Positions 19,941 through 31,523 of a DNA stretch of 64,000 nucleotides are shown one piece after another. Position 1 is the stretch's first letter. Each line of letters starts with the position of its first letter. The position numbers were made by a program, and so were the translations under genes. The notes under the pieces are model-generated. The model saw nothing but the letters and a program-made list of their open reading frames with translations. It had not been told where the DNA came from and did not search any database. This stretch comes from Actinorhabdospora filicis (GTDB lineage Bacteria; Actinomycetota; Actinomycetes; Mycobacteriales; Micromonosporaceae), in contig NZ_BSTX01000005.1 of assembly GCF_030269765.1 (NCBI RefSeq), positions 124,001 through 188,000 of the forward strand. Direction: 5' to 3'.

Positions 19941-20786
19941 ATGAGCATGGACCGCCGCGAACTCGCCGACTTCCTCCGCCGCTCGCGCGAGCGCCTGGTG
20001 CCCGCCGAGGTCGGACTCACGGCCGGGCCCCGCCGCCGGACGCCCGGGCTGCGCCGCGAAGAGGTCGCCCAGCTCGCCGGCATGTCCGCCGACTACTACG
20101 TGCGGCTGGAGCAGGCTCGCAGCCCGCAGCCCTCCACGCAGATGCTGGCCGCCCTGGCCCGGGCCCTACGACTCGGCGATGACGAACGTGACCACCTGTA
20201 CCTCCTCTCCGGACACCGGCCGCCCGCCGGGCGGCTCGCCGGGGAGCACGTGCGCCCCGGCCTGCTCTACCTGCTCGACCGGCTCGCCGAGACCCCCGCG
20301 CAGATCCTGAGTGACCTCGGCGACGTCCTCGCCCAGAACGCCATGGCCCGCAGCCTGCTCGGCGGGGTGTGCACCGTCTCCGAGTACGGCCGCAACGTGG
20401 TGTGGCGCTGGTTCACCGACCTCGACCAGCGGCACGCCTACCCCGAGGAGGAGCACGAGCACCTCGGCCGCGTGCACGTCGCCGACCTGCGGGCCGCCGT
20501 CGCGCGCCGGGGCAACGACGCCGCCTCCGCGCGGCTCGTCTCCCGTCTCCACGAGGCCAGCCCCGAGTTCACCCGCCTGTGGGAACTCCACGAGGTCGGT
20601 GTGCGCCGCCACAGCCGGATGCGGGTGCGGCACGAGTCCGTCGGTCTCCTCGAACTCGACTGCGAAGTGCTGTTCGCGCCCGAAGAGGACCAGCGGATCA
20701 TCATGTTCACCGCGCCGCCCGGCAGCCCCGACCTCGACCGGCTCGCGCTGCTGCGCGTCGTCGGCGACGAGGTCTTCACGGGCTGA
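19941..20786 (+). CDS. XRE-family regulator with MmyB-like domain
   Basis: Third member of this regulator family, about 281 residues. The HTH region carries RRRTPGLRREEVAQLAGMSADYYVRLEQAR; the MmyB-like domain follows (about 105-275). ATG 19941 chosen (MSMDRREL); 19929 and 19947 are alternatives. Its 3' end overlaps the converging HTH gene by 11 bases. The divergent hydrolase is the likely target. Confidence 0.88.
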   Translation: MSMDRRELADFLRRSRERLVPAEVGLTAGPRRRTPGLRREEVAQLAGMSADYYVRLEQARSPQPSTQMLAALARALRLGDDERDHLYLLSGHRPPAGRLAGEHVRPGLLYLLDRLAETPAQILSDLGDVLAQNAMARSLLGGVCTVSEYGRNVVWRWFTDLDQRHAYPEEEHEHLGRVHVADLRAAVARRGNDAASARLVSRLHEASPEFTRLWELHEVGVRRHSRMRVRHESVGLLELDCEVLFAPEEDQRIIMFTAPPGSPDLDRLALLRVVGDEVFTG

Positions 20787-21267
20787 CGTACATCGCGCCC
20801 ACCCCCTCCAGGGGCATCAGGCCCTCGGCGGCCAGCCCCGCCGAGCCCAGGCGGGAGCGGATCGCGTCCGGACGCCGCCCGAACGCCCTGGCCAGCTCGC
20901 CGATCGTCTGGCCGCCCCGGACCCGCGCGAACAGTTCGGCCTCCTCTTCGAGCGTCCACGACGCTCCCTCGACGGGATAGAGCACCTGCTCGGTCGCCGC
21001 CTCGCGCGTCTCCTCGGCCAGGGCCGACAGGACCTCGCGCAGCATCCGGGTCAGGAACGAGCCCACCGACGCCAGGTCGGCCGCCGCGACCTCGCCGGTC
21101 ACGCGCGTGCCGGGTGGCTCGCCGGGCGTCATGCCGTTGAGTTCGATCGTGTAGCGGCCGGGCGCGGTGCGCCGGGCGGCGAAGTCCAGGACGCGCTGAC
21201 CGACGTGGATCTGGCGGCAGACGGTGCCGCGCGATCGGCGGACGGGAGCACAGGTCGACCCGGTCAT
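20776..21267 (-). CDS. Small HTH protein, paralogue of the divergent gene
   Basis: Not assigned to a named family. 163 residues; ATG 21267 has AAGGAGG six bases upstream. The N-terminal half (20-95) looks like a small alpha/beta domain followed by a helix. The C-terminal part (102-144), GASWTLEEEAELFARV then ELARAFGRRPDAIRSRL, resembles a Myb/SANT-type or sigma-like helix-turn-helix. The divergently transcribed protein at 21529 has the same architecture, so the two are paralogues. Their shared promoter region contains a symmetrical DnaA-box array. Confidence 0.75.
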   Translation of the reverse strand: MTGSTCAPVRRSRGTVCRQIHVGQRVLDFAARRTAPGRYTIELNGMTPGEPPGTRVTGEVAAADLASVGSFLTRMLREVLSALAEETREAATEQVLYPVEGASWTLEEEAELFARVRGGQTIGELARAFGRRPDAIRSRLGSAGLAAEGLMPLEGVGAMYVSP

Positions 21268-21349
21268 TTCGGCCTCCTTGGGGCGAATGCGAGTTGGTGA
21301 CGTGAGCCAACCATGAGACCGGGATGGGTGCAAACAGGTGCTTTGGGGG

Positions 21350-21441
21350 CCTGTGGATTACTGGTCGGTTGTGGATAACTTTTGGACGACTTAGGCGTGA
21401 AGCTCCAAAAAGTTATCCACAACCGGTGAGTTATCCACAGG
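21350..21441. promoter_or_regulatory. Symmetrical array of four DnaA boxes
   Basis: Two arms of 37-38 bases (21350-21386 and 21404-21441) are inverted copies with four mismatches and a one-base indel around a 17-base spacer. Each arm has two DnaA-box-like 9-mers with starts 18 bases apart: 21352-21360 (reverse, TAATCCACA), 21370-21378 (reverse, TTATCCACA), 21413-21421 and 21431-21439 (forward, TTATCCACA). The array is 82 bases from the minus-strand start and 87 from the plus-strand start, so it is centred in the divergent promoter. Confidence 0.8.
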
Positions 21442-21528
21442 TGTACCGACATGTCGTTTGTGTTTTCGGGCGAACCGGTGTCTTCTGGACCACCGGCCGC
21501 GATCGGCGGCCCACCGGAAGGAGCCGAC

Positions 21529-31490: not shown

Positions 31491-31523
31491 TTATCAACAG
31501 GCTTGTCCACAGCCTGTGGATAA
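31491..31523. promoter_or_regulatory. Cluster of three DnaA-box-like sites
   Basis: TTATCAACA (31491-31499, a one-mismatch variant), TTGTCCACA (31503-31511, the streptomycete consensus) and, inverted, TGTGGATAA (31515-31523), the last two only three bases apart. It lies between the thiolase terminator and the end of crgA. Confidence 0.7.

Follow-up and report, generated by a model that had tools for sequence, protein, structure and literature searches.

An inverted array of box pairs between two divergent HTH genes

The window, by which we mean the whole 64,000-nucleotide stretch of Actinorhabdospora filicis DNA that was analysed, contains two divergent genes for paralogous HTH proteins, and between them lie four DnaA-box-like 9-mers that form two inverted arms (Table 1). 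Each arm holds two boxes on the same strand with starts 18 bases apart, namely TAATCCACA and TTATCCACA on the minus strand and two copies of TTATCCACA on the plus strand. Judged against the DnaA-box consensus, three of the four are exact matches to TTATCCACA and the fourth has one mismatch. The earlier note had described this layout, and every box was recovered where it had been placed. Its arm length of 37-38 bases is reached when one gap is allowed; without a gap, a repeat search aligns 34 nt in each arm (21350-21383 and 21408-21441) at 88% complementarity, with 24 nt between them. The near-central placement that it reported also holds, as 82 and 87 bases separate the array from the start codons (21267 on the minus strand and 21529 on the plus strand), which we chose for their good ribosome-binding sites.

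Boxes are more numerous in the window than expected by chance. Eight matches with at most one mismatch were counted, four of them within the 88 bases of the array, against a mean of 1.73 and a maximum of 6 in 100 shuffles. A second cluster at 31491-31523 comprises TTATCAACA, TTGTCCACA and an inverted TTATCCACA at 12-base steps. It sits behind what we read as a thiolase-like gene, and resembles a normal DnaA-box cluster or one part of a hairpin.

The array itself was rejected as oriC or an origin-like cluster, because it is flanked by the HTH pair and because dnaA (assigned with Pfam) and the box cluster behind it are found on contig C5 at about 61.7-63.9 kb, roughly 81 kb away. This agrees with the earlier view that the array is not oriC and yet is located near the origin.

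Table 1. Positions of the array, its boxes, the putative promoter elements and the flanking genes in the window
Feature	Position	Strand	Basis
Whole array, two inverted operator arms (putative)	21350..21441	.	Inverted-repeat alignment
Right arm box 1, TTATCCACA	21413..21421	+	Box search
Right arm box 2, TTATCCACA, then GG	21431..21439	+	Box search and genome-wide pair search
Right -35-like GTTTG, starts 16 bases after box 2	21456..21460	+	Promoter-offset scan
Right weak -10-like hexamer TCTTCT, 41 bases after box 2	21481..21486	+	Inferred; not exact TANNNT
Right HTH gene, 186 aa	21529..22089	+	ORF, start by ribosome-binding site
Left arm box 1, TTATCCACA	21370..21378	-	Box search
Left arm box 2, TAATCCACA, then GG	21352..21360	-	Box search and genome-wide pair search
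Left -35-like GTTTG, offset 16 after box 2	21331..21335	-	Promoter-offset scan
Left weak -10-like hexamer TTGGCT, 41 bases after box 2	21305..21310	-	Inferred; not exact TANNNT
Left HTH gene, 163 aa, paralog of right HTH gene	20776..21267	-	ORF; 33% identity

The same box pair precedes competence genes in this genome

When up to three mismatches were allowed anywhere, the pattern TTATCCACA-N9-TTATCCACA was found 33 times in the genome and its reversed version not at all. The TCCACA core is intact in both boxes of all 33 pairs, and variation is confined to box positions 1-3. A search with the core fixed returned the same 33 places without mismatch, and allowing one mismatch added only 4 places versus 7 in the reversed control, such that only the 33 pairs stand out. 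Twenty-four of these belong to copies of a repeated element and nine are promoter sites of protein genes, two of which are the array arms. TAATCCACA serves as box 2 in 4 of the 9.

The seven further promoter sites precede comEA-comEC, yraN-comM-dprA, an M23 peptidase gene, a paralog of the SSB family, comF, a Tad-pilus locus and a DUF4192 gene. The Tad-pilus locus has a ParA/CpaE-like gene at its head and encodes Pfam T2SSE, T2SSF, TadE and Tad domains, and the product of the comF site is a phosphoribosyltransferase of the ComF type. These assignments are supported by Pfam, although ComF, YraN (Pfam UPF0102) and CpaE-like are names given by our own reading. A common site precedes DNA-uptake genes, and with the exception of DUF4192, a domain without known function, the predicted target set is close to the textbook competence set. 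Because the same module also fronts competence genes and 24 repeated elements, the proposal that the array is a special switch for the HTH gene pair is not supported.

Promoter-like words occur at set distances from the boxes. A GTTTG-like word starts 15-17 bases after box 2 in 32 of the 33 sites (16 in both arms), and a TANNNT hexamer is present at offset 42-44 in 23 of the 24 repeats. At offsets 30-55 after box 2, an exact TANNNT is missing from all nine protein-gene sites, so that their -10 elements are weak or different. Both arms carry a T-NNNN-T hexamer at offset 41, which we infer to be the -10 element.

Box pairs at comEA promoters

Upstream regions of comEA were chosen without reference to the boxes. 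Orthologs were obtained by protein search in 43 of 46 family genomes, and 30 loci were examined. A same-strand TCCACA pair is located upstream in 26 of the 30, with a spacing of 17-21 (most frequently 19). No pair was found on the opposite strand (0/30) or in the downstream control, and none of 1500 regions simulated with a first-order Markov model contained one.

In the class, 186 of 197 genomes have a ComEA match. Among the matches listed, 40 were hand-picked for family spread, and the analysis covered 65 regions from 26 other families; L267-L269, which belong to the family itself, and L292, which has hardly any sequence upstream, were excluded. Among these listed matches, pairs 12-36 apart are present upstream of comEA in 22 of the 65 regions (11 of the 26 families) and absent from 43, compared with 1 of 65 on the opposite strand and 2 of 3250 Markov-simulated regions. 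Two of the 22 paired regions, L304 and L306, resemble tandem repeats of local origin. The commonest spacings are 29 (8), 17 (5), 31 (4) and 27 (3) in the 66 regions from the matches listed, where one region contributes several pairs to the counts for 17 and 31; the additional region, L308 (133 bases), was dropped from the 65-region counts. TCCACA itself occurs 96 times on the gene strand versus 16 times on the other, again among the matches listed. Flanks are shortened at L209 and possibly at other loci on short contigs, and gene offsets there are rough.

When family and other-family promoters with a pair are considered together, TANNNT starts 39-42 bases after box 2 in 36 of 48 and at 30-31 in three. 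The A. filicis comEA promoter is among the 12 that have no TANNNT at 39-42.

Named comEA loci were examined as the best 80 of at least 243, and 37 of these 80 have a pair, spaced 18 or 19 in 29 cases, while 43 have none. Controls for the same 80 gave no pair on the opposite strand and 1 in 4000 simulated regions. TANNNT offsets in this best-80 set are 38-41 in 27 loci, 50 in four and 30-31 in two. Within it, paired promoters occur in Micromonospora, Salinispora, Actinoplanes, Rhodococcus and some Streptomyces and Mycobacterium species, and pairs are absent from several Streptomyces, Aeromicrobium and Mycolicibacter species and from Chloroflexi, Anaerolineae and Acidimicrobiia genomes. The pair counts should not be read as probabilities, since some species belong to both the family and the named set, and related species are not independent observations.

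Over the comEA sets (the named part again being the best 80 of at least 243), operator spacing peaks at 18/19 and at 29, and values of 17, 20, 21 and 25-33 also occur. A definition of exactly 18 bases proved too narrow, given the spacings of 17-21 and about 29 at comEA promoters. In all seven Streptomyces-like comEA regions that were aligned, box 2 reads TCCACG, TCCCCG or TCCACC.

The 18-base pattern in relatives and in the class

The exact 18-base pair is present in 33 of 61 family genomes (A. filicis included) and absent from 28, and the reversed control gave one match in all. In the relatives we collected 92 sites at 89 loci in 32 genomes, a set that leaves out a few places (e.g. G004 at 4.19 Mb and the G020:C31 copy). 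Genes were counted within about 1.2 kb downstream on the box strand. Thirty sites in 13 genomes have a reference gene type there, 9 more precede recA, and 53 precede neither; at none of the 92 is a reference gene type located solely on the other side of the box pair. Ordinary SSB genes may be caught by the SSB reference as well, and the Tad reading rests on the TadZ reference and the Pfam domains of the A. filicis locus.

The pairs directly upstream of recA come from nine family genomes (L093, L099, L100, L107, L108, L111, L112, L156 and L172), and recA was checked with Pfam at L099. Some of the 53 remaining sites are other repeated elements of two genera, and a few precede AbiEi/DUF559-like or XRE-type genes. 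At L157 and L168, the box pair precedes genes whose products have AbiEi-antitoxin-like N-termini and weak restriction-endonuclease-like C-termini according to Pfam. The genes at L101, L150 and L173 resemble these by likeness only, and Pfam gave nothing for L101 and L150.

Across the class, the 18-base pattern was found in 25 of 158 genomes, with a single match in the reversed control. Eight of the 28 class sites collected outside A. filicis precede genes for SSB (4), ComF (3) or M23 (1) proteins, and 20 precede none of these.

DUF4192 genes proved weak as a second unselected test set. Only 4 of 30 upstream regions have an 18-base direct pair, and at other spacings the set yielded 5 opposite-strand pairs and 1 control pair. 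About a dozen of the 30 (e.g. L239, L243, L245 and L248) carry two boxes in inverted orientation (CTGTGGATAAC...GTGTCGTCCACAGG), and some of the remaining relatives have one box.

A repeated element behind the box pair

The repeated element in A. filicis is about 115 bases long and consists of the box pair, a promoter and a predicted transcript start with a G/C-rich hairpin (21 copies aligned and 24 scored; e.g. L001 and L003-L011). A profile model built from the 21 aligned copies and using sequence only was run over the genome and returned 24 strong copies (at least 69.7 bits) and 6 weak matches. Both array arms are among these weak matches, as are the sites at comEA, yraN and the Tad locus and a single place that has no pair. 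A crude ORF reading of 18 copies of the element put most of them in intergenic positions, several between convergent genes. None of the 24 is located on contigs C2 and C3, though these make up about 36% of the genome.

The element resembles a small-RNA gene in its organization. A known RNA family was rejected as an explanation, as Rfam searches of 14 repeat loci gave two weak sub-threshold matches, neither of them on the element. Two other genera (L114-L126 in G041 and L134-L146 in G004) have their own, different small-RNA-like repeats behind box pairs, and although the sequences differ, they align around the -10 region and the G-rich start. Such repeats may encode small RNAs that are induced in competence, or they may be mobile repeats that acquired the operator.

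The two HTH proteins

The left and right HTH proteins are 33% identical in alignment. Neither has a family above the Pfam cut-off or in NCBIfam or PADLOC, and weak matches were to phage proteins; no named relatives were found. A C-terminal HTH-like stretch is indicated by weak matches and by a low-confidence structural model of the right protein (mean pLDDT 59.5, pTM 0.33), in which four strands and a long helix are followed by a three-helix HTH-like part. The best fold matches of this model are PUR repeats (E 0.06), which we treat as a lead only. PUR repeats are single-strand DNA binders, and it is a matter of speculation from this model that the HTH proteins might act on incoming DNA.

A proposed operator and its rivals

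We propose that each arm is an activator operator of a natural-competence regulon, and that the array represents two such operators placed back to back between divergent regulon genes. Based on the sequence comparisons, we assign this reading a probability of about 0.8. The activator would bind two same-strand boxes, whose spacing is 18 bases here, 17-21 in the family and about 29 in several further families of actinobacteria. The downstream box lies about 40 bases ahead of the -10 hexamer, and from there the activator would recruit RNA polymerase to a weak promoter, so that each arm would drive the gene on its own strand. Because the comEA pairs and the TANNNT offset are conserved, an arm is most likely an activator site that drives its own HTH gene. 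The boxes, their spacing, promoter geometry, target genes, conservation and strand bias can be read from the genomes directly, and from them we infer that the effect is activation and that the regulon is induced in competence.

It is appropriate to ask whether the boxes serve DnaA without regard to the genes beside them. The array, like the 24 repeats, might soak up DnaA near the origin for titration or timing, and any effect on genes would be incidental. The match of the boxes to oriC words, the distance of about 81 kb from oriC, the box pairs in all 24 repeat copies and the absence of these copies from C2 and C3 would fit such a role. Against it, the boxes have a set strand, spacing and promoter offset, and other genera have them in front of genes from the same functional set. 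Furthermore, steps of 10-12 are the commonest at the A. filicis oriC (6 of 13) and account for 3 of 6 at the dnaB promoter, whereas steps of 17-19 are absent from oriC and from the dnaA and dnaB promoters; one 18-base step at the dnaA locus falls inside the dnaA coding region. Since the position relative to promoters is fixed, we favour a transcriptional role and consider titration improbable. We give even less credence to the idea that the array is the leftover of an inverted duplication, in which a gene and its promoter were copied and the boxes have no function here. Both arms and both genes are indeed alike, but the boxes and the GTTTG offset have been retained in both arms, and the same module precedes comEA in 26 of 30 family genomes. 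Among the relatives searched for HTH homologs, none turned up in which boxes and HTH pair have stayed together despite drift of the surrounding intergenic sequence. This is the least probable of the explanations that we weighed.

The remaining rival is autoregulation, wherein the HTH proteins happen to recognize a DnaA-like sequence and govern the regulon as a whole. Their HTH-like C-termini and the position of the array between their genes would be expected if so, and the earlier note had suggested that the array might be the proteins' own site. Their distribution argues otherwise. At a cut-off of 1e-5, which very diverged homologs could escape, 5 of 41 genomes (A. filicis included) gave a homolog. 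The box pair, in comparison, is present in 33 of the 61 family genomes and also in other families of actinobacteria, and 10 of 12 relatives with a box pair that were searched for both have no HTH match. Within 1500 bases upstream of the relatives' HTH homologs, no same-strand TCCACA was found (0/4). This result also weighs against the competence-operator reading, as it gives no sign that the array is conserved together with the HTH genes. We regard autoregulation as very improbable, though marginally less so than a duplication leftover, and a role of the HTH proteins as a general regulator as unlikely. Under the competence-operator reading, they are probably outputs of the regulon and most likely lineage-specific members of it.

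Which protein binds the operator is a separate question. The array boxes match words at the A. filicis oriC (picked with the pattern YYNTCCACA), and control by DnaA thus stays possible. This is the part of the earlier DnaA-responsive switch that survives, whereas its restriction to this gene pair does not. The spacing, the presence of TAATCCACA as box 2 in 4 of the 9 protein-gene sites and the Streptomyces-like second boxes that lack the core speak against DnaA. A different competence regulator with DnaA-like specificity has, in our estimate, an even chance of being the binder, and the chance that it is DnaA falls slightly short of even. Separately, five DnaA-type boxes lie upstream of dnaB (Pfam DnaB) at L174 4597-4652, with steps of 11, 21, 12 and 11.

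A broader proposal, which we advance tentatively and would not yet bet on, is that DnaA acts as a competence activator across Actinomycetes through promoter-fixed box pairs, and that several genera have added amplified small-RNA genes under the same switch. If true, paired DnaA boxes would tie DNA uptake to the replication initiator.

Relation to known systems

According to PMC12849477, what switches on competence in Actinomycetota is an open question. For Micrococcus luteus, sections of PMC12849477 and PMC8467076 report that the comEA/EC operon promoter is regulated, and the former states that upstream signals or a regulatory cascade remain to be identified. The comEA/EC genes are a target here also, and none of the genomes that we examined was identified as Micrococcus. 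The relevant passages of both papers name no operator, and the word DnaA is absent from both main texts. A literature search without preprints and most subscription journals found neither a prior report of the operator, which is not proof of novelty, nor a report linking DnaA to actinobacterial com genes. An operator with a set promoter geometry would offer a direct bait for the missing competence regulator, and would predict which genes are members of the DNA-uptake programme. A single protein might also turn out to serve both replication control and DNA uptake. The recurrence of the operator before DNA-uptake genes in many actinobacteria provides a testable handle on the competence switch.

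With respect to DnaA, the 9-mer of the array is the same as words at the A. filicis oriC and as high-affinity boxes in the relevant part of PMC4285127, which gives TTATCCACA, and TTGTCCACA for Streptomyces coelicolor and Mycobacterium tuberculosis. That part of the paper also indicates that origin boxes tolerate a shift of one helical turn relative to each other, and the 18/29 spacing of the operator seems likewise to tolerate one helical turn. In contrast to DnaA arrays, for which the A. filicis oriC has a commonest step of 10-12, the operator has a spacing of 17-21 or about 29. It differs further from DnaA boxes in that Streptomyces-like second boxes lack the core and that its targets are a competence gene set.

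A further parallel may be found outside the phylum. In Bacillus subtilis, the ComK K-boxes are paired short boxes with discrete helical-turn spacings that control com and DNA-processing genes. The operator proposed here resembles them, as it also consists of paired short boxes at com and DNA-processing genes, and its spacing peaks at 18/19 and 29 may likewise differ by about a helical turn. Unlike K-boxes, the boxes of the array have a TCCACA core and the same orientation, and they come from a different phylum.
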